Assembly (NCBI RefSeq): GCF_002874965.1
Contig: NZ_CP025624.1
Span: 2,852,001 to 2,916,000, forward strand
Source: Pseudomonas sp. NC02
Lineage (GTDB): Bacteria > Pseudomonadota > Gammaproteobacteria > Pseudomonadales > Pseudomonadaceae
Length of the DNA stretch: 64,000 bases
Direction of reading: 5' to 3'
A program made the translations under genes and the position numbers. Positions 29,576 to 46,928 of this stretch are shown here, in pieces (position 1 is the stretch's first letter; every line of letters begins with the position of its first letter). The notes below the pieces were generated by a model. That model was not told the origin of the DNA and did no database searches. It was given only the letters and a program-made list of their open reading frames with translations.

Positions 29576-30199
29576 TTGATACGGGAAGAACTGGCGCAAT
29601 ATGGCGGTATCACCGTCATGATTCCGGCCGCAGTGGTGATCGCCGTCTGGCTCTGGTATTCCCGGCCCCAGGCGGTCAAGTGGTGGCTGATGACCATCGC
29701 CTGCACCTATTCCATCGTGGCGTTCAGCAAGTTGCTGTTCAAGGGCTGGGGCGTGGCGCTCCAGCAGCTGGATATTGCGGTGCTCAGCGGTCACGCCATG
29801 AATACGTCGTTGATGGTGCCCGTGGCGATGAGCCTGGTGGCGCGCCGGGTCAACCCCGAGTGGCGCTGGCCCGCAGCTATCGCCGGGATGTTGATCGCCG
29901 GCTGGTTCAGTGCCTATTGCGTGGCACCCTATATTCACCCACTCAACGAAGCACTGGCCGGTGGCTTTTTGGGCGGCATGGCGGCACTGGCGTTTCTATG
30001 GCGCCTTGAGGTGGTTGAAGTGCGGGTTTCCCCATCGTTGATCGGGGGGGGAATGGTGATCCTGTTGTTAAGTGCGATGGCACCCAAGTACAACGCCGAG
30101 AAGCTGCTCAACCATGTGGCAGTGGCCGTATCAGGTGCCGACCAGGCCCATCAGGAGCCTTCCTGGCGGACCTCTTCCATGCAGTTGAACGCCGAGTAA
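29576..30199 (+). CDS. PAP2-like multi-pass membrane protein
   Basis: A protein of about 207 residues with five or six membrane helices. It carries a PAP2-phosphatase-like motif SGHAMNTSL and, later, IHPLNEALAGGFLGG, which resembles the third PAP2 motif but lacks the canonical SRxxxxxH...D pattern. Such enzymes can dephosphorylate undecaprenyl diphosphate or phospholipids. The start is uncertain: TTG 29576 has AGGG eight bases upstream, ATG 29618 begins at the first helix, and an earlier in-frame ATG-less extension to 29519 is less likely. Its last 49 bp overlap the convergent gene at 30151. Confidence 0.6.
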   Translation: MIREELAQYGGITVMIPAAVVIAVWLWYSRPQAVKWWLMTIACTYSIVAFSKLLFKGWGVALQQLDIAVLSGHAMNTSLMVPVAMSLVARRVNPEWRWPAAIAGMLIAGWFSAYCVAPYIHPLNEALAGGFLGGMAALAFLWRLEVVEVRVSPSLIGGGMVILLLSAMAPKYNAEKLLNHVAVAVSGADQAHQEPSWRTSSMQLNAE

Positions 30200-30923: not shown

Positions 30924-31433
30924 TCAGTCACTTCTTTGCACTCGGCTGATTTCTGCCAATGGCAAGTTGATGCGTTGTTCCCGTTGCAGGAAGTTCATCA
31001 GCAACACCACACGTTCCTCACCGTCCATGGCCAGGAAGACCGCTTCAAGTTCGGCAAACGGCCCTTCATTGATGCGCACGCTTTCGCCGGGCTGCAACAG
31101 GGCGCTCACCACGGCCTGGTGGTCGCGCTCCTGGAGTTCGTCCACCAGCGTGTCGCTGATGGGCAACGGGTGCGCGCCGAATGCCACCACCCGCGACACA
31201 CCGCGGGTCGAGCGCAGTGAGCTCCAGCTGTCCTGCTGGCTCATTTGAATAAACAGATAACCGGGAAACAACGATTCACGGGTGGTCCTGCGCTGGCCCT
31301 TCAACAGCCGTTCGCGTTTATAGGTAGACCGGAAGCAGGTATAGCCCTGGCGCTGGAGGTGCTCCTCGGCGCGCTCGTCCTGCCGGGATTTGCACTGGAC
31401 CAGGTACCAGGCTTTGTTGGCACTTGCGCTCAT
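30924..31433 (-). CDS. rfaH: RfaH-like NusG-family antiterminator
   Basis: A 169-residue NusG paralogue. The NGN domain (about 7-105) opens AWYLVQCKSRQDERAEEHL and includes RESLFPGYLFIQM; the KOW-type C-terminal domain (about 115-165) has GPFAELEAVFLAMDGEERVVLLM. The fused 'operon-specific' character is shown by its place beside a capsule locus and by a perfect ops element at 34441-34452 in that locus. RfaH proteins bind the ops DNA in the paused transcription complex, suppress Rho termination and can recruit ribosomes. It is divergent from the capsule operon that starts at 31666. Confidence 0.88.
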   Translation of the reverse strand: MSASANKAWYLVQCKSRQDERAEEHLQRQGYTCFRSTYKRERLLKGQRRTTRESLFPGYLFIQMSQQDSWSSLRSTRGVSRVVAFGAHPLPISDTLVDELQERDHQAVVSALLQPGESVRINEGPFAELEAVFLAMDGEERVVLLMNFLQREQRINLPLAEISRVQRSD

Positions 31434-31665: not shown

Positions 31666-32106
31666 TTGTTTAAAAGAGTGTTGATTGTCTGTATTGGCAA
31701 TATTTGCCGTAGTCCCACCGCGGAAAGTCTTTTGCGTGGCGCACTCCCGTGCTCCGATATCAAGATCAGTTCTGCAGGTATTGCCGCGTTGGTCGGCAAG
31801 CCGATTGAAACCACCGCGCGTGCGGTACTCGAAGCCCACGGTCATCCGGCCGACAAGCACCAGGCCACCCAGTTGGCGCCACAGGCGATCAGTGAAGCCG
31901 ACCTGATCCTGGTCATGGAACGACAGCACATCAATGCCGTACTCAGCATGGCGCCCGAGGCACGAGGCAAGGTCTTGCTGCTGGGCAAATGGCAAAACGA
32001 GCGAGAGATCAGCGACCCGTACCGTCAAGGCAAGGCCGCGTTTGTGCACGCTTATGCGTTGATCGAAGAGGCTGTAAACGCATGGGCGCAGCGTCTTGCA
32101 CGCTGA
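31666..32106 (+). CDS. wzb: Low-molecular-weight protein-tyrosine phosphatase (Wzb/Etp-like)
   Basis: A 146-residue phosphatase with the P-loop VCIGNICRS (nucleophile C9, R15) and the acid-loop SDPYRQG. It should dephosphorylate the tyrosine cluster of the BY-kinase encoded 45 bp downstream, so cycling capsule polymerisation. The only reasonable start is TTG at 31666, with GGGGAT upstream; weak initiation may keep the level low. It is the first gene of the long plus-strand capsule operon. Confidence 0.92.
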   Translation: MFKRVLIVCIGNICRSPTAESLLRGALPCSDIKISSAGIAALVGKPIETTARAVLEAHGHPADKHQATQLAPQAISEADLILVMERQHINAVLSMAPEARGKVLLLGKWQNEREISDPYRQGKAAFVHAYALIEEAVNAWAQRLAR

Positions 32107-32151: not shown

Positions 32152-34380
32152 ATGCAGCAAACGCCAGCAGTCACCGTACAGGAAGACGATAACGGGGAGA
32201 TTGATCTCCTCGGTCTGTTTGGAACACTGATCGACCATAAATGGCTGATCGCTGCGGTGACCGGTGCCTTTATGGTCACTGGCGCCGCCTATGCGGTGCT
32301 GGCAACCCCGGTCTACCAGGCGAATGCCCTGCTGCAGGTCGAAGCGAAAAAGAACGACTTGCTGGGCTTCTCGGACATCGGCGGGATGCTGGGCAAGGAG
32401 TCGCCGTCGGCCACCGAGATCGAGCTGATCCAGTCCCGCTACGTGATTGGCAAAACCGTCGACAACCTGAAACTCGATATCGTCGTACAGCCGATGTACT
32501 TCCCGGTAGTGGGTGAGTTCCTGGCGCGCCGCTTCCAGAAGGCCAACCCCGGTGCAATCGCCGAGCCGCTGCTGGGCCTGGACAGCTTCGCCTGGGGCGG
32601 CGAGTCGCTGAAGATCTTCAAGCTGGACCTGCCCGACGGGCAATTGGGCAAGAAGCTGACCCTGACCGTGGGTGAAAACGCGCACTACACCCTGGTGGAT
32701 GAAGATGACCAGGTGCTGGCGGTCGGCGAGGCCGGGCAGCCGTTCGAGCAAAATGGCGTGGCATTCCAGATTGAAGAACTGCGCGCCAAGCCCGGCACGC
32801 GTTTCCGGGTGATCCGCAATGCGCGACTGACCAGCATCCTCGACTATCAGGAGAACCTGGATGTGGTCGAGCGAGGGAAGGAGTCGGGCATGATCGGCCT
32901 GGCGCTGGAAAGCACCGAGCCGGACCAGGCGATCAAAATCCTCAATCAGATCGCGGCGATCTACGTGCGGCAGAACGTGGAGCGCACCTCGGCTGAGGCG
33001 GCGCAAAGCCTGGCGTTTCTCAAGGAGCAACTGCCGGAGGTCAAGAAGGACCTGGAAAAAGCCGGGAAGGCCTTGAATGAATACCAGACCCGCAGCAAGT
33101 CGGTGGACATCACCCTGGAAACCAAGGCGATTCTCGACCAGATCGTGGGCCTCGATACCAGCATCTCCGAGCTGAAGCTGCAACAGGCCGAGATGGACCG
33201 CAAGTTCACCCGCCAGCATCCCGCGTATCGCGCATTGCTGACTCAGATCGGCGAGCTGACCAGCAAGCAGCAGAGCCTGGCGAGCCGGGTCGAGAGCCTG
33301 CCTTCCACCCAGCAGGAGCTGCTGAGCCTCACCCGGGATGTCGAGGTCGGCACGGCCATTTACACCCAGTTGCTCAACAAGTCCCAGGAACTCGATGTGA
33401 TGCGCGCGGGCACCGTGGGCAACGTGCGCCTGATCGACACCGCAGACGTCAATTTCTTCAAGCCGATCAAGCCGAAAAAGATCCTCATCGTGCTGATCGC
33501 GACGCTGCTGGGCGGCTTCCTGGCGGTGACGCTGGTGCTGCTGCGCAAGGCGCTGAACCGTGGCCTGGAAAGCCCCGAGGCCATCGAGCAACTGGGCTTG
33601 CCGGTGTACGCGTCGATTCCGTACAGCACGCTGCAAAAGGTCGAAGAAGACAAAATCAGCCGCGGGCGTGGGCGTGCCGATGCCGGCTCTTCATTGCTGG
33701 CCATCAGTCACCCCACGGACCTGGCAGTGGAGGCCTTGCGCAGTTTGCGCACCAGTTTGCACTTCGCGATGCTCGAGGCGCCGAATAACCGGATCATGAT
33801 TTCCGGCCCCAGCCCCGAGGTGGGTAAAACCTTTGTCTCGGTGAACCTGGCGGCGGTCATCGCGCAAACCGGGCAGCGCGTGTTGTTGATTGACGTGGAT
33901 ATGCGACGGGGCTACCTGCACAAAGTGCTGGGTGTGCCGGCCAAGGATGGGCTTTCCGACATCCTCTCCAATCAATGCACCCTTGAATCCGCCATCCACA
34001 AAACCGGCGTTGAAAACCTCGACATCATCAGCCGCGGGCAAATACCGCCGAATCCTTCCGAGCTGCTGATGCACCGCAACCTGACCGAGCTGTTGGCGCA
34101 GGTCAGCGAACGGTATGACCTGGTGATTCTGGATACGCCACCGCTCTTGGCCGTGACCGACGCAGCCATCGTGGGACGGCAATCGGGGACCAACCTGATC
34201 GTCACCCGCTATGGCTTGAACCCGGCAAAAGAGATCGAGCACACCATGCGCCGATTTGCCCAGAACGGCATCGTGCTCAGGGGCGCGATCTTCAACGGCG
34301 TTGAAAAGAAAGCGTCGGCCAAATATGGCTACGGCAACTACGGGTATTACCAGTACGAATACCAGGCTGATCGGAGCTGA
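32152..34380 (+). CDS. wzc: BY-kinase/co-polymerase Wzc
   Basis: A 742-residue inner-membrane tyrosine autokinase that sets polymer length and works with Wza. Order: cytosolic tail, membrane helix at 31-51, periplasmic Wzz/GNVR region with coiled coils, second helix at about 443-463, kinase domain with Walker A GPSPEVGKT (K559) and Walker A' LLIDVDMRR, then a C-terminal tyrosine cluster (seven Tyr between about 725 and 738). Length and architecture match E. coli Wzc/Etk. It is followed by a 105-bp leader holding the ops element. Confidence 0.95.
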   Translation: MQQTPAVTVQEDDNGEIDLLGLFGTLIDHKWLIAAVTGAFMVTGAAYAVLATPVYQANALLQVEAKKNDLLGFSDIGGMLGKESPSATEIELIQSRYVIGKTVDNLKLDIVVQPMYFPVVGEFLARRFQKANPGAIAEPLLGLDSFAWGGESLKIFKLDLPDGQLGKKLTLTVGENAHYTLVDEDDQVLAVGEAGQPFEQNGVAFQIEELRAKPGTRFRVIRNARLTSILDYQENLDVVERGKESGMIGLALESTEPDQAIKILNQIAAIYVRQNVERTSAEAAQSLAFLKEQLPEVKKDLEKAGKALNEYQTRSKSVDITLETKAILDQIVGLDTSISELKLQQAEMDRKFTRQHPAYRALLTQIGELTSKQQSLASRVESLPSTQQELLSLTRDVEVGTAIYTQLLNKSQELDVMRAGTVGNVRLIDTADVNFFKPIKPKKILIVLIATLLGGFLAVTLVLLRKALNRGLESPEAIEQLGLPVYASIPYSTLQKVEEDKISRGRGRADAGSSLLAISHPTDLAVEALRSLRTSLHFAMLEAPNNRIMISGPSPEVGKTFVSVNLAAVIAQTGQRVLLIDVDMRRGYLHKVLGVPAKDGLSDILSNQCTLESAIHKTGVENLDIISRGQIPPNPSELLMHRNLTELLAQVSERYDLVILDTPPLLAVTDAAIVGRQSGTNLIVTRYGLNPAKEIEHTMRRFAQNGIVLRGAIFNGVEKKASAKYGYGNYGYYQYEYQADRS

Positions 34381-34440
34381 TTCACCACTGTAATTGCAGG
34401 ATAGAGGTCACGTTTTCAGGAAATGAACGAAAAATCCTGG

Positions 34441-34452
34441 GGCGGTAGCGTG
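34441..34452 (+). promoter_or_regulatory. ops element (RfaH recruitment site)
   Basis: The 12 bases GGCGGTAGCGTG match the E. coli ops consensus at all positions. They lie 60 bp after the wzc stop and 34 bp before the preferred wzy start. By chance a perfect match is expected less than 0.01 times in both strands of a window this size. RfaH-type antiterminators bind this site in the non-template strand; an RfaH-like gene is 3 kb upstream. Confidence 0.85.
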
Positions 34453-34485: not shown

Positions 34486-35757
34486 ATGTTTTACCTGTTA
34501 TCCCTTATCGCGCTGTCAGCGGGTTTGCTCGCGGCGAAAAATCCAAAATACTCAATCGTAGTGTTCGGGATAATGCTGGCTGTTATTCCCACGGGTAACT
34601 CCTACAGCGAAATAATCTCGCTCAAGGGTATCTACTTCTTTGACTTTTATATCGTGGGCGGGCTGGGCGCACTGCTGATCCGGCAGGTGGCTACACAGAA
34701 GAAACAATTGACGGTGCCGGGCGGCCTGCTTTTTGGGTGCGGGCTGTATGTGGTGTTACTCGCCTGCGGCCTGCTGGAGTCCTCGAACAAGTACCTGTTG
34801 AAGGATGTTCGGCCGTTTATAATGATCCTGTCATTTATCGTGCTCTCGAACATCGCGACCCTTGCCGCAAAAACGCTGAAGTTGCAGACAGTGCTCCTGC
34901 TATTGATCGCGATGACCGCCTTCAATGTGCTGGACATTGCCTGGTTACGCTTGGGCTTGTACAAGTTTCAAGACGTCTACTATGAAGAAAACGCCTACCG
35001 CTACCTGGACGGCGGTACGTACGCCGCCGTGGCCTATCTGATTTATTACTTCATAGACCCACGGCTGTTCGAACACAGGAAAAAGCTCGCAAGCATTTGC
35101 CTGGCCACTTCATTCATCTGTTTGTTCATTGCCAACTCTCGCTTCATCTTTGTCTCGGTGTTTGCGGCGATCATCATCCACCAATACACCCGGCCGGCCC
35201 GCATGATAGGCGTTGCCCTGGCCGGGGCGGTGGTGCTGATGGCGTTCATTGGCATCAGCAATATGATCGGGGCTGATCGAATCAATGATGGTTTGTCGTC
35301 CGAAGGCATGGCCGCCCAATTGGCCACGCGCTTCAGCCCGGCGCTGGAGTTGATCCGCGGCATGAACCCGCTGCATTACTTTGTGGGACTGGGCGCGGGC
35401 ACGCCGTTCGAGATTCCCTGGTTCGAGTACCGTGGCCTCGATGACAAGAACTCGAATATCGACAGTGCCTACCTAACCTACTTCGTTAAGTACGGGCTGA
35501 TCGGCGTGTACTTGCTGTACGTGTTCATTACCTCGATTACCCAGCACATGAACAGCCGGGTGGCGGTTTCGATCGCCATCTTTCTGGGGGTGATGTTCGT
35601 TGTCTCGGCCACGCCTTATCAGCCGTACGCCATCGGTATCGCGTATGGCGCGATTGTGCTGCGGGTCTGTTCCGAACACACCGCCAGGCAACGCAAAAAG
35701 ATCCTCAAGCCTGACCAGCCGCTGATAACCACACCCTTGCAGGTGAATGCCGGATGA
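34486..35757 (+). CDS. wzy: Wzy-type polysaccharide polymerase/ligase-like membrane protein
   Basis: A 423-residue protein with about ten to twelve membrane helices and a larger periplasmic loop (about 275-345, containing ATRFSPALELIRG and FEYRGLDDKNSN), as in O-antigen polymerases. Two starts are possible. ATG 34423 has its AGGA only two bases away and would place the ops site inside the coding part; ATG 34486 has AAAGAA nine bases upstream and begins directly with the first helix. The second is preferred. It overlaps the flippase gene by 4 bp. Confidence 0.8.
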   Translation: MFYLLSLIALSAGLLAAKNPKYSIVVFGIMLAVIPTGNSYSEIISLKGIYFFDFYIVGGLGALLIRQVATQKKQLTVPGGLLFGCGLYVVLLACGLLESSNKYLLKDVRPFIMILSFIVLSNIATLAAKTLKLQTVLLLLIAMTAFNVLDIAWLRLGLYKFQDVYYEENAYRYLDGGTYAAVAYLIYYFIDPRLFEHRKKLASICLATSFICLFIANSRFIFVSVFAAIIIHQYTRPARMIGVALAGAVVLMAFIGISNMIGADRINDGLSSEGMAAQLATRFSPALELIRGMNPLHYFVGLGAGTPFEIPWFEYRGLDDKNSNIDSAYLTYFVKYGLIGVYLLYVFITSITQHMNSRVAVSIAIFLGVMFVVSATPYQPYAIGIAYGAIVLRVCSEHTARQRKKILKPDQPLITTPLQVNAG

Positions 35758-37214
35758 ACAGCACACTGTTGAAAAAGTTCGTATCCAGTACGGCATGGAG
35801 TTTCGTTTCTGCCGTGGCCACCAAAGTGTCGGTGGTCATCACCGGCATCCTGGTTGCCCGGGTATTGGGTGCGCAATCGTTTGGCGAGTATGGCTTGATC
35901 CAGAGCGCGATTGTGATGCTTGCCAACGTCGCCGCCCAAGCCACCACCACGGCGACGGCCAAGCATATCGGGCAGTTCAAGGAGACCTGTCCCGAGAAGA
36001 CCGGCAGGGGCATCGCGCTGACGCTGCTGTTCTCGGTTGTGTTCAGCGGGATGATCATCGGGACAGCGCTGTTTTTCCCGCACTTTTTCTCCAGCGTTAT
36101 CCTGGGGGCAGACAGCCTCAGCGCTGCATCGCTGATCGTATTGAGCACCATCACGTTGATTATCCTGTCGGGATGGACCCAGGGCTGCCTGACCGGTTGG
36201 GGCCAATACCGGACAATCGCGACCATCAACGGAATCATTGCGATTGTCGCGATTCCGGCGACGTACTTCCTGACCCTGCAGTTGCGACTCAATGGTGCGC
36301 TGCTGGGCTTGGCCGGTTCTCAATTGCTGATCGTGTTCTTCAGCGCACTGGCCTGCTGGAAGACTTTGAAGGCCCGAAATACCACGCTGAGTTTCAAAGG
36401 TGCAATGACTGAAAAGCACGCAGTGCTGTCGGTTGGCCTGCCGGTATTGCTGACGGGGTTGATGGTCGCCCCGATGAACTGGTTCGCCAACAAGTTGCTG
36501 GCGGAAACAACTAACGGCCTTGCCGCATTGGGCATGTACGCCGCCGCGATGCAATGGAACGCGATCTTTTCCCATGTTTCCGTGGTGTTGGGCTCTGTGC
36601 TGGTGCCGATGCTGGCCGCCGCGCTGGGCGGTAAAAGCCGCAAGTTGGACGCCTTGAACTTTCTGTCGGGCTGGCTGGTGGTGTTGGTGATCATACAGCC
36701 GGTGATCATGTTCCCCGAGTTGCTGGCCAAACTGTATGGCAGCAGTTTCCTGGGGCGGGATTTTGAAGTGACGTTGGTTCTGGTAATCCTGGGTTCGCTG
36801 CTCAGTGCATTCAAGTCCGGTATTTCAAGAAAGATGATCGTGATGAACCTGGCCTGGTTCAGTGTGATGAGTAACATTCTATGGGGAGTGTTATTCATTA
36901 CCGGAGCACTGTGGCTTCGGGAAGAAGGTGCAATCGGGATTGCCAAGGCATTTATCGGTTCGCAGTTTATTCACTTCCTGCTGGGACTGCCGTATTTCGT
37001 CTACAAGAAGATATTACCTCTGGAGTTGCTCGTATCTCCCAGGATCCTGATCTTGTGGACATTGCCTTTCATCAGTTTCATATCAAGCGCCTATGTCGAA
37101 AGTGTGCTGTATCGATTAATGATCATGGCGCTGATATTTATCTACATTCTCGCAACGACGTTTGCCTTGAATGCCGTGTTTAATGACCCCGTGGAAAATG
37201 GAAGCCCAGCATGA
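35754..37214 (+). CDS. wzx: Wzx-type lipid-linked oligosaccharide flippase
   Basis: A 486-residue MOP-superfamily transporter with 12-14 membrane helices (for example FVSSTAWSFVSAVATKVS at the start). It moves undecaprenyl-linked repeat units to the periplasm for polymerisation by the adjacent Wzy. It overlaps wzy and the pyruvyltransferase gene by 4 bp each, so the three are co-translated. Confidence 0.88.
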   Translation: MNSTLLKKFVSSTAWSFVSAVATKVSVVITGILVARVLGAQSFGEYGLIQSAIVMLANVAAQATTTATAKHIGQFKETCPEKTGRGIALTLLFSVVFSGMIIGTALFFPHFFSSVILGADSLSAASLIVLSTITLIILSGWTQGCLTGWGQYRTIATINGIIAIVAIPATYFLTLQLRLNGALLGLAGSQLLIVFFSALACWKTLKARNTTLSFKGAMTEKHAVLSVGLPVLLTGLMVAPMNWFANKLLAETTNGLAALGMYAAAMQWNAIFSHVSVVLGSVLVPMLAAALGGKSRKLDALNFLSGWLVVLVIIQPVIMFPELLAKLYGSSFLGRDFEVTLVLVILGSLLSAFKSGISRKMIVMNLAWFSVMSNILWGVLFITGALWLREEGAIGIAKAFIGSQFIHFLLGLPYFVYKKILPLELLVSPRILILWTLPFISFISSAYVESVLYRLMIMALIFIYILATTFALNAVFNDPVENGSPA

Positions 37215-38362
37215 ATGTCAGCAAAGTATATATCCGGGGGGCATACGGTCCTGGTAATTTGGGTGATGACGTATTAATGCTATGCGTGATCAATATTCTG
37301 AAAAAACGCTTTAAGGAATCGGATATAGCGGTGGGTGTCGATCATCCGCAGATCGCCAGGAACTTCAACCCGCGTATCAAGTGGCTGCACATCAAGGAGC
37401 CGGTCAAGGCTGACCTGGTGGTGTTGGGCGGTGGGGGCCAGTTCTTCTCGTTCATCCCACCGGCCAAAAAGGCGGCTGCCAACAAAGGCATCGTGGCGAA
37501 GCTGTGCAAGAGCATCAAGGCGCAGACCGACCTGAAGTCCACGCTTCTGCGTTTGTATGTCGGGTTGCTCGGTGGTGTCGACAGGATCTATTTCCACCGG
37601 CGCCTGGCAGCGTTCTGTATTGGCCTGGGCCCCTTCGATGGCGGCGGCAAGCTGCTGACCCGCGCCGTCAGCGTGATCAATCGCTGTGACTACATTTCCG
37701 TGCGGGACGGTACCAGCCAGCAGCATTGCAAGGCTTTCGGAAAGTCCGACGTCGAGGTGTACACCGACCCCAGCCTGCTTTCCGACCTGTGGATCTCCAG
37801 CAAAGACCTGGAGGTCGGCAGCCTCAAGAAGGGCAAGTACCTGTCCTTCATCCTGCGCGACTGGCCCCATGACGCGAACGGGCAACAGTTCATCAAGGCG
37901 ATGGTCCAGGCCGCGGATGAGCTCGCCAAGCGTGGCGAGCAGGTACGCCTGGTCTCGCTGTACAAGGAACGTGACCAGCACCTGATCGACAAGTACCACA
38001 CGTTCGAATGGTTGTGCTGGGACGCGGCGGGCGATACGCCCGAAACCTTCATGGCGAAACTGATCGTCGAGTCCGACGTGATCATCAGCGCCCGTGCACA
38101 CGGTGTACTGCTGCCGGCTTCCCTGGGCTTTCCCACCATCGCGGTTGAAATCGAAAACAAGCTGAAAAAAGTCCATGAAATGCTGCCGCAGGGCACCCGG
38201 CTGGTCAGCACCCCAGACCCTGAGGTGATCAAGGCCACCATCAGCGAATTCAGGCAATCCAAGGCGCAAATGGCCGAGCACCTCAAGCAGGAGATCGCCC
38301 AGCGTTCTTCCCTTGCGCAAAAAGCGGTCGACGACTTTTTGAAATGGGTCGATGAAAAATAA
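37211..38362 (+). CDS. Polysaccharide pyruvyl transferase family protein
   Basis: A 383-residue protein of the WcaK/CsaB pyruvyl transferase family, opening VYIRGAYGPGNLGDDVLM. ADLVVLGGGGQFF, DYISVRDGTS and the C-terminal SARAHGVLLPASLGFP are typical. It adds a pyruvate ketal to a sugar, giving negative charge to the polymer. It is translationally coupled to wzx. Confidence 0.9.
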   Translation: MNVSKVYIRGAYGPGNLGDDVLMLCVINILKKRFKESDIAVGVDHPQIARNFNPRIKWLHIKEPVKADLVVLGGGGQFFSFIPPAKKAAANKGIVAKLCKSIKAQTDLKSTLLRLYVGLLGGVDRIYFHRRLAAFCIGLGPFDGGGKLLTRAVSVINRCDYISVRDGTSQQHCKAFGKSDVEVYTDPSLLSDLWISSKDLEVGSLKKGKYLSFILRDWPHDANGQQFIKAMVQAADELAKRGEQVRLVSLYKERDQHLIDKYHTFEWLCWDAAGDTPETFMAKLIVESDVIISARAHGVLLPASLGFPTIAVEIENKLKKVHEMLPQGTRLVSTPDPEVIKATISEFRQSKAQMAEHLKQEIAQRSSLAQKAVDDFLKWVDEK

Positions 38363-38380
38363 AGTGGAGGGGCAACCGAC

Positions 38381-39226
38381 GTGAAAAAGACAGCCTCGAC
38401 GCTACTCATTGTGGCGTTCGCCCTGCAGGTGGCTGCCAGCGGCGCATCTGAGTTGAACGACCGTTGCGAGCCAGGCATCAAGAACATCTACCCGTCACTG
38501 CCGGACATTTCGCAGATGGCCGACGGGCCCCAGGCGCAAAGCAGCATAAAGGGCAGGGCCAATCTGACGAACAAGGCCTACAGCCAAAAGATCAAGGACA
38601 TTGCCGTGCATTTTCCGGCCGGCTCCTATGACCCGGGTTCGATGGTGCGCCTTGGGTTGCCCTACGGCGGCATTGAATTCAAATCCCCACTGCCGCAACC
38701 GGGCAGGGAATGCCTGGTACTGACCTATGAGTTGAAGTTCGACAGGAATTTCGACTTTGTAAAAGGCGGCAAGCTCCCGGGCCTCTACGGTGGCACCGGC
38801 AATACGGGCGGCAAGATACCGAACGGCCATGACGGCTTTTCCACGCGCTACATCTGGAAAGAAAAGGGCGTCGGCGCCATTTACGCGTATTTGCCCACCA
38901 GTAAAACCTGGGGCACGGCAGTCGGGTTGGGTTCCTGGATCTTTACGGTGGGGCAATGGCACAGGTTGGAGCAACTGGTGAAGTTGAATACGCCGGGGCA
39001 GGCCGACGGTGTGATTTCCATTTGGTACGACAACCAGCTGGTGCACTCGGAAACCGGGCTGACGTTTAGAGACACGCCGGAGATCACCATCGACGGCTTG
39101 CTGTTTTCGACGTTCTTCGGTGGCAATAACCCGTCTTTCGCCACGCCGGTGAGTACCAATATCCGCTTCAGGAATTTTGTGATGAGTTCACAGCGCGTAA
39201 CGGATACTTCAGGGCAGGGCGAGTAG
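38381..39226 (+). CDS. Secreted polysaccharide lyase-like protein (PL14-like fold)
   Basis: A 281-residue periplasmic protein with signal peptide (cleavage near ASG-AS, residue 21). The segment FVKGGKLPGLYGGTGNTGG followed by FSTRYIWKEKGVGAIYAY is characteristic of alginate-lyase-like jelly-roll proteins related to PL14. It would trim or edit uronic-acid-containing polymer in the periplasm, comparable to lyases inside alginate loci. GTG start with GGAGGGG upstream. It lies 18 bp after the pyruvyltransferase gene. Confidence 0.82.
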   Translation: MKKTASTLLIVAFALQVAASGASELNDRCEPGIKNIYPSLPDISQMADGPQAQSSIKGRANLTNKAYSQKIKDIAVHFPAGSYDPGSMVRLGLPYGGIEFKSPLPQPGRECLVLTYELKFDRNFDFVKGGKLPGLYGGTGNTGGKIPNGHDGFSTRYIWKEKGVGAIYAYLPTSKTWGTAVGLGSWIFTVGQWHRLEQLVKLNTPGQADGVISIWYDNQLVHSETGLTFRDTPEITIDGLLFSTFFGGNNPSFATPVSTNIRFRNFVMSSQRVTDTSGQGE

Positions 39227-39769
39227 ATGAAGAACCTGAAACTGAACATCAAGAAGGCCGCTGTTGCGCTGTTCAATACGCTGCTAAGCCTGGCGTTGTT
39301 TTTCAATCTGCGACGCGCGTTGCTCCGGGCAACCGGATGCCGGGTGGGCGCCCGGACTACGATCCACCGCAACGTGGTGTTTTTCTCCTTCGGCAACTTC
39401 TCGGTCGGGAAAAACTGCACGGTCAATTACGACTGCTACCTGGATAACCGGGCGGGCATCCGCATCGGCGACAACGTCAATATTTCCCATAACACCCGGA
39501 TTTATACGCTGGGCCACGATATTGATGACCCCATGAGTTGCCTGGTGGGGAAGCCGGTGTTGATTGAAGACAATGCCTGGATCTTTCCCAATGTGATGGT
39601 GATGCCAGGCGTCACCATCGGAACAGGCGCGGTTGTTTATCCGGGCAGTGTGGTCACGCGCAACGTTGCAGCGTATTCGATCGTGGGAGGCAATCCGGCC
39701 AAACATATCCGCTTCAGAAACAACACTATTCGATACAACGCCGACTTTCCGATCTGGTTTGCAGTGTAA
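39227..39769 (+). CDS. Left-handed beta-helix O-acetyltransferase
   Basis: A 180-residue hexapeptide-repeat acyltransferase of the WcaF/NodL/CysE type. Repeats run from about residue 60 (FSVGKNCTVNYDCYL, IRIGDNVNISHNTRI) to VTIGTGAVVYPGSVV; catalytic His is likely in TLGHDIDD. A hydrophobic N-terminal segment (about 10-25) may attach it to the membrane. It starts directly at the previous stop codon. It would O-acetylate the repeat unit. Confidence 0.9.
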   Translation: MKNLKLNIKKAAVALFNTLLSLALFFNLRRALLRATGCRVGARTTIHRNVVFFSFGNFSVGKNCTVNYDCYLDNRAGIRIGDNVNISHNTRIYTLGHDIDDPMSCLVGKPVLIEDNAWIFPNVMVMPGVTIGTGAVVYPGSVVTRNVAAYSIVGGNPAKHIRFRNNTIRYNADFPIWFAV

Positions 39770-39796
39770 GCAATCTCACTGGCCCCACCTTTATTT

Positions 39797-40786
39797 ATGC
39801 AGGACTCTGACGTGAAATCATTAATGATTGCATGGATTGGCTATCAACGACGCGCCGATACCATGAAGCAATACTGGGCGTATGACATTCTGCATCTGCC
39901 CAACCAGTTCAAGAAGAAATCCGCGCGGCCGCTGGATTACTTGATCAAGTCGTTTAAAACCCTGAAGACCCTGTTGGCCGGTTCGCCTGACGTGCTGTGG
40001 GTGCAGTTGCCGCCGAGCCCGGTATTGCATATAGCACTGGCCTACAAGTTTATATTCAACCGGCGGCTGAAGATTATCGCCGATGCCCACAACAGCCTGT
40101 TGCGCAAACAATGGATAGGCTTTCCGGGCACGGTAGCGCTGTTGAATAGAATCGATGCCGTCGTCGTTCATAATTTTAAAGTCAAAGAAGAGTTGGCCGG
40201 CCTGGGCGTCAAGGACACCAATATCTTTATCCTGGAAGACTTGCCGTGTGACTTTCACGCGGCGCCCGCCAGTGAGCGCGAGACACCCTATGTACTGTTT
40301 CCGTGCTCGTTTGATATCGATGAACCGATCGAGATCGTGATCAACGCCGCCCGCGAAATGCCCGGTGTCGACTTCCTGATCACCGGCAAGCATCAGGGCA
40401 AGCTCTCCGAGGAGCTCGTGGCGTCACTCCCCGAGAACATCAAGCTGACCGGCTTCCTCAGCAAGGCGACCTTTGAACAGCTGCTGTGCCACGCGAATGT
40501 GGTGCTCGGCCTGACCACCCGCGACAACGTCCAACTGAGCGTGGCCAACGAAGCGGTCAGCGCCGGCAGGCCGATGGCGCTTTCGAATACCACGGTACTG
40601 CGCTCGTTGTTTTCCGAGGCGGCGGTGTTTGTCGACACCCTGGACCCGCTGTCCATCAAGGCCGGCGTCGCGCAGCTCATCGCCAATCAAGAAACCTATA
40701 AAGAGAAATCGGCCTTGCTCAAAGCCAAGCGAATAACCCGCTGGAAAGGCCAGGCCCAACTGTTAAGAACTGCCGCCACTATTTAA
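39797..40786 (+). CDS. Glycosyltransferase (GT-B, GT4-like)
   Basis: A 329-residue GT-B glycosyltransferase resembling the GT4 group: LKIIADAHNSLLRKQW in the N-terminal domain, VDFLITGKHQGKL and ANVVLGLTTRDNVQLSVANEAVSAGRP in the nucleotide-sugar domain. The donor cannot be fixed; GDP-mannose is an attractive guess given manC nearby. Start may be ATG 39797 or, with a better-placed AGGA, GTG 39812. Confidence 0.85.
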   Translation: MQDSDVKSLMIAWIGYQRRADTMKQYWAYDILHLPNQFKKKSARPLDYLIKSFKTLKTLLAGSPDVLWVQLPPSPVLHIALAYKFIFNRRLKIIADAHNSLLRKQWIGFPGTVALLNRIDAVVVHNFKVKEELAGLGVKDTNIFILEDLPCDFHAAPASERETPYVLFPCSFDIDEPIEIVINAAREMPGVDFLITGKHQGKLSEELVASLPENIKLTGFLSKATFEQLLCHANVVLGLTTRDNVQLSVANEAVSAGRPMALSNTTVLRSLFSEAAVFVDTLDPLSIKAGVAQLIANQETYKEKSALLKAKRITRWKGQAQLLRTAATI

Positions 40787-40821
40787 TGATGTCTATTACA
40801 CCTGACAGGAAGGGAACCGTC

Positions 40822-41277
40822 ATGAGTCAATCAAGTGATGTTTTATTGATTTGTTCTGGAGGTGGGCACTGGGTACAAATGAGCAAGTTGCTGCCTGCCT
40901 TCGACGGTCAAAAAGTTACCATCGCCACCGTTGATATCAGCATTGGCTCGCAGTATCCAACCCATGCCTTCGCGCAAGTCCCGGACTTTAATCGCAGTGA
41001 ACCGTTGAAGATCATCAAGGGCTTTTGCCAGATCTTTGCGATCGTTTACCGCAGCAAGGCCAGGTACGTGATCTCCACCGGGGCGGCACCGGGGTTGCTG
41101 GGGCTGGTCGCGGGAAAACTGATGGGCAAAAAGACCCTGTGGATCGACAGCATTGCCAATCCCAAGAAGCTCTCGTTGTCCGGCAGGATCGCTGTGTATT
41201 TTGTCGATGAGTTGCTGACCCAGTGGCCCACGCTGTCGCAAAACAGCCGGGCCCAATATAAAGGGAGGATTGTATAA
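40822..41277 (+). CDS. Alg14-like glycosyltransferase subunit (PssD-like)
   Basis: A 151-residue protein resembling the membrane-anchoring Alg14/PssD half of a two-part glycosyltransferase: VLLICSGGGHWVQM at the start, ARYVISTGAAPGLLGLVAGK in the middle and KTLWIDSIANPKKLS. AGGAAGGGA lies five bases before ATG 40822, preferred over ATG 40786. It is followed immediately by the Alg13-like subunit. In Rhizobium the PssD/PssE pair transfers GlcA to lipid-linked glucose; a similar step fits the local ugd gene. Confidence 0.85.
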   Translation: MSQSSDVLLICSGGGHWVQMSKLLPAFDGQKVTIATVDISIGSQYPTHAFAQVPDFNRSEPLKIIKGFCQIFAIVYRSKARYVISTGAAPGLLGLVAGKLMGKKTLWIDSIANPKKLSLSGRIAVYFVDELLTQWPTLSQNSRAQYKGRIV

Positions 41278-41754
41278 ATGATATTTTGCAGCGTTGGCAC
41301 TCAAGCACCCTTTGAAAGAATGCTCGGCTACTTGCATGAGTGGAGTCATGCAAACCCGCAGGTCCCGATTGTTGCCCAGGTGGGCAATAACGAAAATGAC
41401 CTGGGGCGCATTACGGCTTACAAGACCATCGCCGAGCCGCTGTTTTCCAAGAACTTCAATGCGTCAAAGGTGATTGTTTCCCATGCGGGCATGGGCAATA
41501 TCATTCGCTCCCTTGAACTGGGCAAACCGATTGTTATTGTCCCGCGCGACAGTCGACGCGGTGAACACATCAATAATCACCAGTACGACACCGCCGAAAA
41601 CTTTTCAGACCTTCCCTCTGTGTTTATCGCCCATGATAAAGATGCGTTCTTTTCGGCGATTGATTCGGCGCTTAACTACAGCAATGTCGAAAGTTCACTG
41701 GACTTTACCGAAAGGGACCGCTTGATCAGTTATGTGAAGTCATTCACTTCTTAA
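41278..41754 (+). CDS. Alg13-like glycosyltransferase subunit (PssE-like)
   Basis: A 158-residue catalytic-type partner with the GT28 C-terminal fold: FCSVGTQAPFERM at the start, VIVSHAGMGN at about 65-74 and KPIVIVPRDSRRGEHINNHQ. It starts right after the stop of the Alg14-like gene, so a 1:1 complex is likely. Together they probably add the second sugar of the repeat. Confidence 0.88.
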   Translation: MIFCSVGTQAPFERMLGYLHEWSHANPQVPIVAQVGNNENDLGRITAYKTIAEPLFSKNFNASKVIVSHAGMGNIIRSLELGKPIVIVPRDSRRGEHINNHQYDTAENFSDLPSVFIAHDKDAFFSAIDSALNYSNVESSLDFTERDRLISYVKSFTS

Positions 41755-41808
41755 GTTTCGGCTGTTTGTCAATCCGCTCTTATTGCCTTTAATCATCGAG
41801 TAATCGTT

Positions 41809-43236
41809 ATGATCCCAGTTATATTGTCTGGCGGTTCAGGCACGCGCCTGTGGCCGCTTTCAAGAGCGCTTAAACCAAAGCAGTTTATTGCGCTGCACGG
41901 TGACTTGAGTTTGTTTCAAGCCACCTTGGATCGCATCAAGAACCTGTCGATAGAGGGCGAGACCGTCAGCCCGCCGATCATTGTGTGCAACGAAGAACAC
42001 CGTTTCATCGTGGCCGAGCAAAGTCGATCACTGGACGTGATCCCGCAGAAAATCCTCCTTGAGCCGACCGCCCGCAACACCGCCCCGGCGATTGCGGCGG
42101 CAACCCTGTCGGCGCTGGTGGATGGGGACGATCCGATCCTGCTGGTGCTGGCGGCGGACCATGTGATCGGCGATACCCAAGCGTTTAATGCGGCCTTGAC
42201 ACTGGCCAAGGTGGAAGTCAACAAAGGCAAGATCGTCACCTTCGGGGTTGTGCCCACCAAGCCGGAGACCGGCTACGGCTATATCCGTACTCAAGCGGCT
42301 GCGGTGGACGGCGCCGCGCATGTCGATGCCTTCGTGGAAAAGCCCGACCTGGCGACCGCGCAAGGCTACCTGGAACAAGGCAACTACTTCTGGAACAGTG
42401 GCATGTTCATGTTCCGCGCCTCGGTGATGAAGGCCGAGCTGGAGCGCCTGAGCCCGGAGATCATGGTGGCCGCGGAACTGTCCCTCTCCAACGCGGCCCA
42501 TGACCAGGATTTCACCCGGCTCAGCCAGGTGGATTTTGTGAACGCACCCAACGTGTCGATCGATTACGCGGTGATGGAAAAGACCCACATCGCGTCGGTG
42601 GTCATCCTCGATTCGCCGTGGAGCGACCTGGGTGCCTGGGACTCAGTGTGGGAAGCGGGCTTCAAGGATCAGAACCAGAACTGCACCCAGGGCGACGTGC
42701 TGCTGCAGGACGTCACCAACAGCTATGTGCATGCCAGCCACCGCCTGGTCACGGTTGCAGGGATCAATGATGTGGTGGTCGTCGAGACCGCCGACGCGAT
42801 TTTGGTGACCACCAAGGACCACGCGCAAGACGTCAAGAAAATAGTCGCGCAGCTGACTGAAAAGCACCGGATCGAGAGCACCAGCCACCGCGAAGTCTAT
42901 CGGCCGTGGGGCAAATATGACTCGGTGGACCAGGGCTATCGGTACCAGGTGAAGCGGATCACGGTGAAGCCGGGGCACAAGCTGTCGGTGCAACTGCACC
43001 ACCACCGGGCCGAGCACTGGATCGTGGTGTCCGGCACCGCGAATGTGCAAATCGCCGACAAGCAAGTGCTGCTGACCGAGAACCAGTCCACCTACATCCC
43101 CATTGGCGTTGTGCACTCCCTCGAAAACCCGGGGCGAATCCCGCTGGAGCTGATTGAAGTCCAATCGGGCTCGTACCTGGGCGAGGACGACATCATCCGC
43201 TTTGAAGACCGCTATGGCCGCCTCGAGCTTGTTTAA
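41809..43236 (+). CDS. manC: Mannose-1-phosphate guanylyltransferase/mannose-6-phosphate isomerase
   Basis: A 475-residue bifunctional type II enzyme making GDP-mannose. The nucleotidyltransferase domain begins VILSGGSGTRLWPLSR and has EKPDLATAQGY; the C-terminal cupin isomerase domain shows YRPWGKYDSVDQGYRYQVK and LSVQLHHHRAEHW. No full phosphomannomutase gene is nearby, so AlgC elsewhere in the genome must supply Man-1-P. Confidence 0.95.
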   Translation: MIPVILSGGSGTRLWPLSRALKPKQFIALHGDLSLFQATLDRIKNLSIEGETVSPPIIVCNEEHRFIVAEQSRSLDVIPQKILLEPTARNTAPAIAAATLSALVDGDDPILLVLAADHVIGDTQAFNAALTLAKVEVNKGKIVTFGVVPTKPETGYGYIRTQAAAVDGAAHVDAFVEKPDLATAQGYLEQGNYFWNSGMFMFRASVMKAELERLSPEIMVAAELSLSNAAHDQDFTRLSQVDFVNAPNVSIDYAVMEKTHIASVVILDSPWSDLGAWDSVWEAGFKDQNQNCTQGDVLLQDVTNSYVHASHRLVTVAGINDVVVVETADAILVTTKDHAQDVKKIVAQLTEKHRIESTSHREVYRPWGKYDSVDQGYRYQVKRITVKPGHKLSVQLHHHRAEHWIVVSGTANVQIADKQVLLTENQSTYIPIGVVHSLENPGRIPLELIEVQSGSYLGEDDIIRFEDRYGRLELV

Positions 43237-43248
43237 AGGAAGATTGAA

Positions 43249-44592
43249 ATGAATGTAACTGTATTTGGAATCGGCTATGTGGGCCTGGTGCAGGCAGCGG
43301 TGCTGGCCGACGCGGGGCATGAGGTGTGTTGTGTCGACGTGGACGCGACTAAAGTCGAGAACCTCAAGGCCGGCATTATTCCGATCTTTGAGCCCGGGCT
43401 GAGTGCGCTCGTCCAGAAGAACCATGATGCCGGACGCTTGCACTTCACCACCGATGCCGCGCAAGGCGTGCGGCACGGAGAGGTGCAGTTCATCGCCGTG
43501 GGCACCCCGCCTGATGACGATGGCAGCGCCGACATCAAGTACGTGCTCTCCGTTGCCGCGACTATTGCGCTCAACATGACCGAGCCGAAGATTATCGTTA
43601 ACAAGTCCACGGTGCCGGTGGGGACGGCGGACAAGGTCCGGGCGAAGGTGTCCGAGGTGTTGACGTCGCGGGGGCTCGAGGTGGAGTTCCACGTGATCTC
43701 GAACCCCGAGTTCCTCAAGGAAGGTTCGGCGGTCGCCGACTGCACCCGGCCCGACCGGATCATCATCGGCAGCGACAGCAGTTACGCCGTGGACCGCATG
43801 CGGGAGCTGTATGAACCCTTCAACCGCAACCACGAAAAGATCATCACGATGGACATCAGGAGTGCCGAGCTGACCAAGTACGCGGCCAACTGCCTGCTGG
43901 CCACCAAGATTTCCTTCATGAATGAAATGGCCAATTTCGCCGAACGCTTGGGCGCCGACATTGAGGCGGTTCGTAAAGGCATTGGCTCCGATCCACGGAT
44001 CGGCTACGACTTTATCTACCCAGGCTGCGGTTATGGCGGCTCGTGCTTCCCGAAAGATGTGCAGGCGCTGGAGCGCACCGCGTCGTCGATCGGCTATCAG
44101 GCAACGCTGTTGTCTGCCGTCGAGGAAGTCAACAAGCGCCAGAAGCAGCACCTGTTCGGGCATATTCACCACCACTTCGGCGGCCAGCTGGAGGGCAAGA
44201 CCTTCGCCATCTGGGGCCTGGCCTTCAAGCCCAATACGGATGACATGCGCGAAGCCTCGAGCCGCGTGTTGATCGAACAACTGCGCAGCGTGGGTGCCCG
44301 GGTCCAGGCATTCGACCCCGAAGCGATGGCCGAGACCCAGCGCATTTACGGGATGAACGAAGACCTGTTGCTGATGGGCACCAAGGAAGCGGCGTTGCAA
44401 GGTGCCGATGCGCTGGTGATCGTGACCGAATGGCGGGAGTTCAAGGCCCCGGACCTGGACTTGATAAAAGAAAAACTGAGCACGCCGGTGATCTTTGACG
44501 GCCGCAATATATTTGATCCGCAGCGTATGAAAGCCAATGGTTTCGAGTATTACGGTATTGGTCGCGGGTTATCGGTACGCCCCGTTGTTTAA
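43249..44592 (+). CDS. ugd: UDP-glucose 6-dehydrogenase
   Basis: A 447-residue NAD-dependent dehydrogenase giving UDP-glucuronate. VFGIGYVGLVQ is the Rossmann motif and YGGSCFPKD holds the catalytic Cys266; ISNPEFLKEGSAV and the C-terminal FDGRNIFDPQRMK favour UDP-glucose over GDP-mannose as substrate. It lies 12 bp after manC. It implies that the polymer contains a uronic acid. Confidence 0.93.
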   Translation: MNVTVFGIGYVGLVQAAVLADAGHEVCCVDVDATKVENLKAGIIPIFEPGLSALVQKNHDAGRLHFTTDAAQGVRHGEVQFIAVGTPPDDDGSADIKYVLSVAATIALNMTEPKIIVNKSTVPVGTADKVRAKVSEVLTSRGLEVEFHVISNPEFLKEGSAVADCTRPDRIIIGSDSSYAVDRMRELYEPFNRNHEKIITMDIRSAELTKYAANCLLATKISFMNEMANFAERLGADIEAVRKGIGSDPRIGYDFIYPGCGYGGSCFPKDVQALERTASSIGYQATLLSAVEEVNKRQKQHLFGHIHHHFGGQLEGKTFAIWGLAFKPNTDDMREASSRVLIEQLRSVGARVQAFDPEAMAETQRIYGMNEDLLLMGTKEAALQGADALVIVTEWREFKAPDLDLIKEKLSTPVIFDGRNIFDPQRMKANGFEYYGIGRGLSVRPVV

Positions 44593-44771: not shown

Positions 44772-45056
44772 ATGAGGAAAATACTGTTGGCCGGCGTGCT
44801 GGCCTTTAGCAGTACTGCGGCATTGGCGGCAGGTGAAGTCGCGAGCGAGGCCTTGAGCGATGCGGCCGGCGCGAGCGAGCCCCTGTCGTTGAGCACCCCG
44901 CTCGTGGGCGGCGTGACGCTCGGTGAAACCGTCGGGGTCGGTACCGCGGTAGTCGGCGCTGCGGCGGCGGCTTCCAACTCGGGCGGCAGTTCCAATGGCG
45001 GTACTTCCGGCACCGGCGGCACCACCGGTACAGGCGGTACCACCGGTACCAACTAA
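44772..45056 (+). CDS. gfcA: Small secreted Gly/Thr-rich protein, GfcA/YjbE-like
   Basis: A 94-residue protein: signal peptide (cleavage after A-L-A, about residue 19), a short Ala/Val-rich middle, and a Gly-Thr-Ser tail of low complexity ending GGTTGTN. E. coli GfcA (YmcD) and YjbE have the same build and occupy the same place in front of the GfcB-E/YjbFGH genes. The function of these proteins is unknown. A terminator follows it directly, so this gene may be expressed at a higher level than those downstream. Confidence 0.75.
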   Translation: MRKILLAGVLAFSSTAALAAGEVASEALSDAAGASEPLSLSTPLVGGVTLGETVGVGTAVVGAAAAASNSGGSSNGGTSGTGGTTGTGGTTGTN

Positions 45057-45078
45057 TAACCCGCAATGTGTGTTGTTC

Positions 45079-45111
45079 AAGATCACCCGGAACTTCTGGG
45101 TGATCTTTTTT
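45079..45111 (+). terminator. Rho-independent terminator after the GfcA-like gene
   Basis: GATCACCC and GGGTGATC form an 8-bp stem with a 9-base loop, followed by six T residues. Its place inside the operon suggests partial termination, or processive antitermination needed to reach wza. Confidence 0.88.
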
Positions 45112-45141: not shown

Positions 45142-46254
45142 ATGATTCGTAGGTTACCTGTTCTTTTGCTGGCAAGTTTCAGCTTGCACGGCTGCATGTT
45201 TTCGCCTGGTCAACATATGGACACCAGTCAAATGTCCAGTGAGGGTTCTTCCGAAAGTACTCGGGTAGAGTTGATTCCCATCACCCCCAAATTGATTGCC
45301 ATGGATGCCGCCACGCATGTTCGTGAATCGGTGCCGGCGGAACTGTTGTCTTATGTGCCCGGTGGCTATCGCGTCGGTGCCAATGACCTGTTGTTCATCA
45401 CGGTTTGGGACCATCCCGAGTTGACGGCACCGTCCGGGCCGCAACAGCAGATCGACGCCAACGGGCGCCTGGTTCGCCCCGATGGCACGTTGTTTTATCC
45501 GTATATCGGCAACGTCCCGGTGGCCGGCAAGACCATCGAAGAGCTGCGGGCCTTTATCGCCGGGCGCTTGTCGCAATTTATTGAAAGCCCACAGGTCGAC
45601 GTCAGCGTCCTGCGGTTTGCCAGCCAGACAGTGGTGGTGACCGGGGCGGTGATCAAGGCCGGGCAACAGCCGATCACCACCACGCCATTGAGCGCCGTCG
45701 AGGCCATTGGCGCCGCCGGTGTCGATCCCACGAATGCCGACCTCTCGAGCCTGACCCTCACGCGTGACGGCCGTGAGTACACGCTTGACCTGGACAGCCT
45801 CAATCGCCAGGGCTCGCAACTGCAGGGCATCTACCTCAAGGGCGGCGACCGGTTGTACCTGCCCTATAACGACCAGAAACGTGTCTACCTGATGGGCGAA
45901 GTCAATCAGCCCCGGGCCCTGAGCTTCAAGGGCAAGTCGATCAACCTGACCGATGCCCTGGGTACCGTAGGCGGCTTGAACCAGACCACTTCCAATGGCA
46001 ATGCGGTCTATGTGATTCGCGGCGTGGACAACCTGGAAGCCGAACCGGCCAAGGTGTTCCAGCTCGATGCCCAGTCACCGTCCGCGCTGGTGCTGGCCAC
46101 CCGGTTCGACTTGCAACCCCAGGACATCGTGTACGTCGGGCCTGCCGGCGTGACGCGCTGGAACCGCCTGATCAGCCAGTTGCTGCCGACCGCCAGTGCC
46201 ATTGGGATTGGTGCCCGATCGGCCAATGACCTCAGTGAAGTCAACAGCAGATAA
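45142..46254 (+). CDS. wza: Outer-membrane polysaccharide export lipoprotein (Wza/GfcE)
   Basis: A 370-residue lipoprotein with lipobox LHGC (Cys18). The Poly_export domain has GYRVGANDLLFITVWDHPEL (about 75-94) followed by SLBB domains (VVVTGAVIKAGQQP, VYLMGEVNQPRALS) and a C-terminal amphipathic segment. It forms the octameric outer-membrane export channel working with Wzc. It starts 31 bp after the terminator at 45079. Confidence 0.94.
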   Translation: MIRRLPVLLLASFSLHGCMFSPGQHMDTSQMSSEGSSESTRVELIPITPKLIAMDAATHVRESVPAELLSYVPGGYRVGANDLLFITVWDHPELTAPSGPQQQIDANGRLVRPDGTLFYPYIGNVPVAGKTIEELRAFIAGRLSQFIESPQVDVSVLRFASQTVVVTGAVIKAGQQPITTTPLSAVEAIGAAGVDPTNADLSSLTLTRDGREYTLDLDSLNRQGSQLQGIYLKGGDRLYLPYNDQKRVYLMGEVNQPRALSFKGKSINLTDALGTVGGLNQTTSNGNAVYVIRGVDNLEAEPAKVFQLDAQSPSALVLATRFDLQPQDIVYVGPAGVTRWNRLISQLLPTASAIGIGARSANDLSEVNSR

Positions 46255-46265
46255 GGCGTTATCCC

Positions 46266-46928
46266 GTGGTGAAAATGTTGCCTACCAGCGCCTGCCTGTC
46301 GATGGCGCTCTTGTTGTGCGGGTGTAACCCGTTGATGAGGGCGTCGTGGTACACCCTCGAAACTTCTGTGACGGGCCCGGCCCCGATCAACGTGACCCGC
46401 GCCCAGGTCGACGCGGTGCCATACCCGCAGATCCTGGTGACCACCGCCGTCAGCGAGGGCGTGATGGCCATGGCCCGGCGCCGGGGCGACCTGCAGTTCT
46501 GGGTCGCTTCCGGCAAGCAAGTGGTGATGATGCGTGACGGCCTGGTGGTACGCACTGTCGGGCTGGGTGTTTCCCTGGATGGCACGCGTTTCAGTGGCGA
46601 ATCGCCGTTCAAGCGCGGCCTCCAGCATCTGCCCGACGGCTACACCGGCACACGCTGGATCGACCTCTACGACGGCAACCGAATCGGTATCGCGGTCAAC
46701 AGCCGTTTCAGCAGCCACGGTATCGAGACCCTCCGCATTCTGGACAAGGATTACGCCTTGCTGCGCATCGACGAGCAGGTGGACGTTCCCACCTTGAATT
46801 TCCGCGCCACCAACCATTATTGGGTCGACCCGCAGGATGGTTTCATCTGGCGCAGCGAGCAGCATTTGACGCCCCGGTTGGCCCTGAAAATCGTGCAGTT
46901 GCGTCCCGACCGGGAGGCAGCCCGATGA
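46266..46928 (+). CDS. gfcB: YjbF/GfcB family lipoprotein
   Basis: A 220-residue lipoprotein (lipobox LLCGC, Cys20) of the YjbF family: SWYTLETSVTGP, VDAVPYPQILV, VWVASGKQVVMMRDGLVVRT-like segment and a final EQHLTPRL. Part of the group 4 capsule/Yjb export module. GTG start with AAGG upstream, at 46266; alternative GTG 46269 or ATG 46275. It overlaps the next gene by 4 bp. Confidence 0.88.
   Translation: MVKMLPTSACLSMALLLCGCNPLMRASWYTLETSVTGPAPINVTRAQVDAVPYPQILVTTAVSEGVMAMARRRGDLQFWVASGKQVVMMRDGLVVRTVGLGVSLDGTRFSGESPFKRGLQHLPDGYTGTRWIDLYDGNRIGIAVNSRFSSHGIETLRILDKDYALLRIDEQVDVPTLNFRATNHYWVDPQDGFIWRSEQHLTPRLALKIVQLRPDREAAR

Follow-up and report, generated by a model that had tools for sequence, protein, structure and literature searches.

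An exact ops element between wzc and a wzy-like gene, with a neighbouring rfaH, in a Pseudomonas polysaccharide cluster

We found that a polysaccharide gene cluster of Pseudomonas sp. NC02 carries an exact copy of the ops element in the gap between wzc and a wzy-like gene, with an rfaH gene divergent from the cluster, and that the pairing of ops with a neighbouring rfaH recurs in many pseudomonads. (In E. coli, ops is the DNA signal that loads the antitermination protein RfaH.) In the reading that we consider likely, wzb and wzc would be transcribed without the help of RfaH, which would load at the internal ops and allow read-through of the genes from wzy to ugd. Throughout, the window is the whole stretch of 64,000 nucleotides (64 kb) that was analysed, and the coordinates of its features are given in Table 1.

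The ops element of the window and its RfaH

A preliminary description of this DNA had reported a complete ops match, and the match indeed holds at 12 of 12 positions, including C3, G5, T6 and G8, whose base roles are described in passages of PMC5995543. The sequence, GGCGGTAGCGTG, occurs exactly once in the window and in 0 of 100 dinucleotide-preserving shuffles. The genome as a whole (6.9 Mb) has three exact 12-mers, versus two for the reversed control, and each of the other two genomic copies either lies within an unrelated ORF or overlaps the start of one. An alignment of related loci indicates a longer element that ends 3' in ops, with ~38 nt conserved and variable flanks on both sides. 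Within it, a 6-pair stem (UCAGGA/UCCUGG) with a loop of 12–13 nt across relatives is followed directly by GGCGGTAGCGTG, and the E. coli JUMPstart has the same arrangement of stem and then ops. A covariance model of the extended element, with the window sequence as part of its training set, gave 66.1 bits for the window site and 14.8 and 19.8 bits for the other two 12-mers; the next-best site in the genome, among the 150 of 3599 first-look candidates that were scored, is that of 19.8 bits. Thus, the genome of Pseudomonas sp. NC02 appears to have one full ops target.

The stem is a consistent property of elements that are linked to rfaH. There are 61 such elements, corresponding to 48 distinct 34-mers, and at least five of the six pairs form in all 48 of these and all six pairs in 42. 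By comparison, the stem is found in 2 of 20 unlinked ops 12-mers (4 of 22 if the two genuine unlinked elements, L070 and L071, each with 6/6 pairs, are included) and in ~5% of shuffled sequences. Moreover, compensatory changes are seen in the stems of L103, L107 and L108 (CAAGG/CCUUG) and of L131 (CAGGG/CCCUG). The single-sequence fold of the window element is not of unusual stability (z −0.66). Note that the structure underlying model R1, from RNAalifold, is not the 6-pair stem, and the stem was therefore counted directly; because of this structure, and because a few rows of the MAFFT alignment A1 are one column out of register, R1 scores are rough. The hairpin and GGGGCGGUAGCGUG are shared with the Rfam JUMPstart RNA (RF01707), to which the window element aligns in structure and at the 3' end; since its 19.1 bits lie under the gathering score of 35, we refer to it as JUMPstart-like by structure rather than as a member of that family. 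(A conserved stem-loop in JUMPstart elements had already been noted, according to part of PMC2864571.)

The divergent gene that had been called RfaH-like encodes RfaH by its family model (Table 1), and the NusG, UpxY and LoaP models score its product below their own cut-offs. No other gene of the genome exceeds the RfaH cut-off; the model has a single further match, which at 53 bits falls below it and is probably NusG. The four side chains K10, H20, R23 and R73, which contact ops in the structure of E. coli RfaH (passages of PMC5995543), are all present, as K15, H25, R28 and R77 of the window protein. R16, E48 and F130 are also kept, I93 is replaced by V, and HTTT at 65–68 is replaced by SWSS; E48, I93 and F130 are given as residues of interdomain autoinhibition in the sections of PMC7593976 on this subject. 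Among 85 RfaH rows from Pseudomonas and Azotobacter, K10 is present in 85, R73 in 84 and R23 in 76, whereas position 20 is divided between H (36 rows) and N (49 rows).

(Note that window positions 30117–30169 gave a sub-threshold match to the Rfam L17 ribosomal-protein leader, at 30.7 versus 34.9 bits and an E value of 0.69, probably by chance.)

Table 1 Features of the window, and paired ops-like sites in four loci of another RfaH clade
Feature	Position	Strand	Basis
rfaH, NusG-paralogue antiterminator, divergent from cluster	30924-31433	-	TIGR01955 170.2 bits (cut-off 144.5); E. coli RfaH chains 1e-28
wzb, low-molecular-weight tyrosine phosphatase, upstream of ops	31666-32106	+	PF01451; Wzb model below cut-off
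wzc, tyrosine autokinase/co-polymerase, last gene before ops	32152-34380	+	TIGR01007 165 bits (cut-off 108); Wzz, GNVR and AAA domains
Stem-loop of JUMPstart-like element	34416-34440	+	5' arm UCAGGA 34416-34421, 13-nt loop, 3' arm UCCUGG 34435-34440
ops element GGCGGTAGCGTG	34441-34452	+	Exact match; conserved in relatives
wzy-like polymerase, first gene after ops	34486-35757	+	PF19896 96 bits; sub-threshold Wzy_C; start from relatives
Assembly genes wzx, pyruvyltransferase, polysaccharide lyase 14, acetyltransferase, glycosyltransferase, alg14/alg13-like, manC, ugd	35754-44592	+	
94-aa ORF between ugd and terminator	44772-45056	+	No Pfam match
Intrinsic terminator	45079-45111	+	13-pair stem 45079-45107, then T tract
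wza, yjbF, gfcC-like, yjbH export block, after terminator	45142-49779	+	
Paired ops-like sites	L115:17738, 17848; L119:950, 1052; L121:1367, 1465; L149:5398, 5497		

Recurrence of ops beside rfaH

The preliminary description had made its reading depend on conservation of the 12-mer in related loci, and such conservation is found: ops is exact in 20 of 24 rfaH loci of named genomes, and the flanks vary. In 18 of these 20 loci ops stands directly after wzc, and in the remaining two, both from Azotobacter, just after rfaH. Across the genus, 105 of 298 genomes have an RfaH homologue (E ≤ 1e-25), at 114 places, and 46 of these places have the 14-mer GGGGCGGTAGCGTG within 12 kb. The association follows the kind of RfaH: the 14-mer lies within 12 kb at 42 of the 49 places with at least 50% identity to the window RfaH and at 4 of the 65 with less. 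Six of the seven close rfaH places that lack the exact 14-mer have near-matches with 5–6 of 6 stem pairs and 27–63 bits, and at the seventh, L136, no ops near-match was found. These findings establish that ops and a neighbouring rfaH recur as a pair, and they suggest a re-equipping of RNA polymerase immediately ahead of the sugar-specific genes.

Copies that lie apart from rfaH bear on whether the ops 12-mer is a chance match. There are 74 matches to GGGGCGGTAGCGTG in 64 of the 298 genomes, versus 29 in the reversed control (the control being summed by eye), and the 25 of the 74 that are unlinked to rfaH approximate the control number, as would be expected of chance copies. Thirteen of the 25, those with a locus, were scored, and two of them are genuine; by eye, these follow a wzz-like (L070) or a wzc-like (L071) gene and precede an assembly gene. 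We attach next to no probability to chance as the origin of the window element, a reading that is refuted by the conservation of the 12-mer in related loci and is opposed also by the lack of the hairpin in most unlinked copies. (Note that, among 369 genomes drawn across the class, eight have the 14-mer, that of the window included, versus 12 control matches by eye; the draw is thus uninformative on spread beyond the genus.)

The 46 linked places fall into three layouts and one exception. At 16 of them ops is on the opposite strand, 3.0–4.9 kb from a divergent rfaH, with wzb and wzc between the two in the window and in seven examined loci of this layout. At 22 ops is on the same strand, 67–130 nt past the end of the rfaH match; a wzz-like match (25–57% identity) lies upstream of rfaH in 13 of the 22, and in L090 a wzz-like ORF follows ops. 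At seven ops lies 336–650 nt after rfaH, six of these having the order wzb-wzc-rfaH-ops-wcaJ, and in G050 ops lies 8 kb upstream. When nine loci (eight of the 22) were read by eye, many were O-antigen-like and two, L103 and L107, exopolysaccharide-like. Thus, the pairing of ops with rfaH is not confined to capsule loci and extends to O-antigen-like clusters.

Several full elements of hairpin plus ops are present in L139 (at 2166, 8554 and 10315) and in L097 (at 13473 and 12046), which suggests duplication or repeated loading.

Other RfaH clades differ in their ops-like sequences. In six loci of a distant clade (L117, L122, L123, L124, L125 and L129) position 23 is Q in 6/6, and GTGCGGTAGCTTTG is found ~190–270 nt upstream of the rfaH match, also in 6/6. 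This sequence is possibly an altered ops in an operon leader, which would fit the changed contact residue Q23. In four of nine loci of another clade there are two ops-like sites ~100 nt apart, 4–5 kb upstream of wzb (Table 1). In L112 and L113 the rfaH frame is shortened or interrupted and ops is also altered; this has the look of joint decay, in two cases only.

Position of ops within the cluster

Domain matches bear out the order phosphatase, kinase, ops and polymerase that had been described. The same-strand gaps are 45 nt between wzb and wzc and 105 nt between wzc and wzy, and ops lies in the latter. Ops would be coding if the ORF with a called start at 34423 were real; this candidate was rejected given that relatives lack the extended ORF. 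In four relatives (L036, L037, L039 and L130) the next ORF begins 33–34 nt past ops; judged by this spacing, 34486 is very probably the start of wzy, and ops would be non-coding.

The placement was examined in 25 loci with the layout of the window: the window itself, 18 loci of named genomes and six more (L141, which is the same locus as L040, was excluded). In 25/25 ops lies 60–177 nt past the wzc stop; note that the set was defined by the presence of wzb and wzc between rfaH and ops, such that the position is partly definitional; the definition does not cover the short spacing or the change of neighbour. Ops is followed by wzy in seven loci, by ugd in five, by a wzx-type flippase in five, by an acyltransferase in five and by an epimerase in two, and the gene after it in L134 is without assignment. 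(wzy and ugd were assigned by tblastn, the genes of L040, L041, L049, L131 and L132 by Pfam, and the rest by like N-termini.) The GC content of the 4 kb after ops (3.3 kb in L044) is below that of wzc in 25/25, by 0.7–14.2 points. Thus, from its distance to wzc, the fall in GC and the varying next gene, the internal placement of ops is conserved, and in a tree of 84 RfaH rows the window layout occupies two clades, of 23 and three rows. The placement after wzc is not universal: L135 has a variant ops upstream of manC-wzb-wzc, which resembles a classical leader.

Ops is followed by at least five kinds of gene, and GC drops after it in every locus. Both would also be expected if the element were retained chiefly for homologous recombination, as a border at which sugar-gene cassettes are swapped, or as an RNA leader, with RfaH binding incidental. 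We regard this as highly improbable, given that presence of the element follows rfaH (close versus distant places, as above), that ops bases and RfaH contact residues are both kept, and that a border would have no need of compensatory stem changes.

A different question is whether RfaH acts on a unit that begins after wzc. By layout, ops does not lie here in the leader of a first gene, since two genes of the same strand, wzb and wzc, come before it. Scans for sigma-70, AlgU and sigma-54 promoters gave no match reached by fewer than 5% of shuffles in 24 of the 25 gaps, which in Pseudomonas is weak evidence of absence, and a scan that also missed the real terminator at 45079 listed no + strand terminator-like site in the wzc–wzy gap. 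The lack of an outstanding promoter or terminator in the gap favours read-through from wzc. Wzy and the genes after it could instead have a promoter of their own, either in the 3' part of wzc or in the gap that follows, making ops the ordinary leader of a second unit; we think this rather unlikely. The E. coli JUMPstart lies ~260 nt after galF in two annotated genomes, many relatives have gaps of 136–177 nt, with room enough for a promoter, and the exception to the scans, L134, has an AlgU-like match of 9/11 that is reached by 3% of shuffles (one such match is expected in 75 tests). In the window, however, the distance from the wzc stop to the conserved element is ~30 nt, and 48% of shuffles reach the score of the best sigma-70 match (8/12), whose −10 sequence, TGTAAT, is not retained by the closest relatives. 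From the gene layout and the lack of an outstanding promoter we infer that ops is mid-operon, which supports the earlier proposal that antitermination starts between the regulatory and the assembly genes.

Under loading of RfaH at an internal ops, RNA polymerase would transcribe wzb and wzc unaided, the nascent RNA would fold into the UCAGGA/UCCUGG hairpin, and the polymerase is predicted to pause at ops. There, non-template ops DNA would recruit the RfaH encoded 3 kb away, and RfaH would displace NusG and Rho and help to recruit ribosomes, with the result that the sugar-specific genes from wzy to ugd would be read through. Pausing, RfaH binding, co-transcription of wzc with wzy and an effect on expression are thus predictions from the arrangement of the DNA, and the assembly genes from wzx to ugd are expected to be under RfaH control.

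The intrinsic terminator that had been placed at 45079 is borne out by its stem and T tract and by the fold of 45040–45110 (−24.2 kcal/mol, z −3.64), which makes it a strong terminator between the 94-aa ORF and wza; the site is absent from the list of a consensus terminator scan. According to passages of PMC7593976, antitermination makes a minor contribution to RfaH action and exclusion of NusG and Rho a larger one. Because antitermination would contribute little and the terminator is strong, the block from wza to yjbH may be outside the reach of RfaH. (The 94-aa ORF is rich in glycine and threonine, and its start looks signal-peptide-like by eye.)

It is quite possible, and we propose it tentatively, that pseudomonads use ops as an internal switch, in which the length-controlling kinase/phosphatase pair is transcribed without RfaH and loading occurs only at the border of an exchangeable cassette; distant clades may have an altered ops (GCGGTAGCTTTG). 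If so, the entry site for antitermination could stay fixed while the sugar cassettes behind it are exchanged, and one local RfaH would therefore serve whichever cassette arrives. The 48 distinct elements paired with RfaH, which include clades with apparently altered ops, are found in a tractable non-enteric genus, and the loci make testable both antitermination that starts part-way and the separation of an RfaH-independent control module from an RfaH-dependent cassette.

Comparison with known systems

Ops/RfaH control of capsule had been called little described in this genus, which in the literature covered applies to the sites but not to the protein. PMC7593976 reports RfaH in Pseudomonadaceae, along with its loss and duplication; its passages on ops do not mention Pseudomonas. 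In the portions available, PMC7969949 reports P. aeruginosa to be without an RfaH orthologue, and PMC5532660 proposes that an RfaH-domain protein activates the P. stutzeri EPS273 locus. Among the open-literature matches listed (titles and abstract starts, with subscription papers mostly outside), none describes ops sites in Pseudomonas; excerpts of PMC3197603, PMC2375017, PMC12282091 and PMC12953531 name RfaH and Pseudomonas and describe no Pseudomonas ops sites, and in PMC4357382, on the capsule of P. fluorescens SBW25, the terms RfaH, JUMPstart, NusG and antiterminat- are all absent. Thus, within the literature covered, much of it in abstract or excerpt, RfaH in Pseudomonadaceae is known and we found no description of its ops sites there.

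Adjacency of the regulator to its presumed target operon is shared with UpxY and TaA, NusG paralogues encoded inside their target operons. The recruitment signals of these proteins are called unknown in PMC7593976, whereas the signal here is a canonical ops. In the cps cluster of Klebsiella pneumoniae Kp13, a JUMPstart lies at promoter P2 and an attenuator is predicted between wzc and wbaP (sections of PMC3438125). The junction of wzc with the variable genes is thus a proposed point of transcriptional control there as in the window; however, the Kp13 junction holds a predicted terminator, with ops upstream, whereas that of the window holds ops itself.

The closest parallel is E. coli RfaH/ops, from which the Pseudomonas system differs in that rfaH lies beside its target, ops follows wzb-wzc rather than preceding the first gene, only one full element was found in the Pseudomonas sp. 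NC02 genome, and the hairpin is UCAGGA/UCCUGG rather than CUGG/CCAG. The two systems have in common the same 12-nt ops with a hairpin just upstream, an RfaH of the same equivalog family with its contact residues, and a polysaccharide target. Moreover, in E. coli, where two annotated genomes have the JUMPstart between galF and the first O-antigen gene, the site likewise lies at the left edge of a variable gene block.
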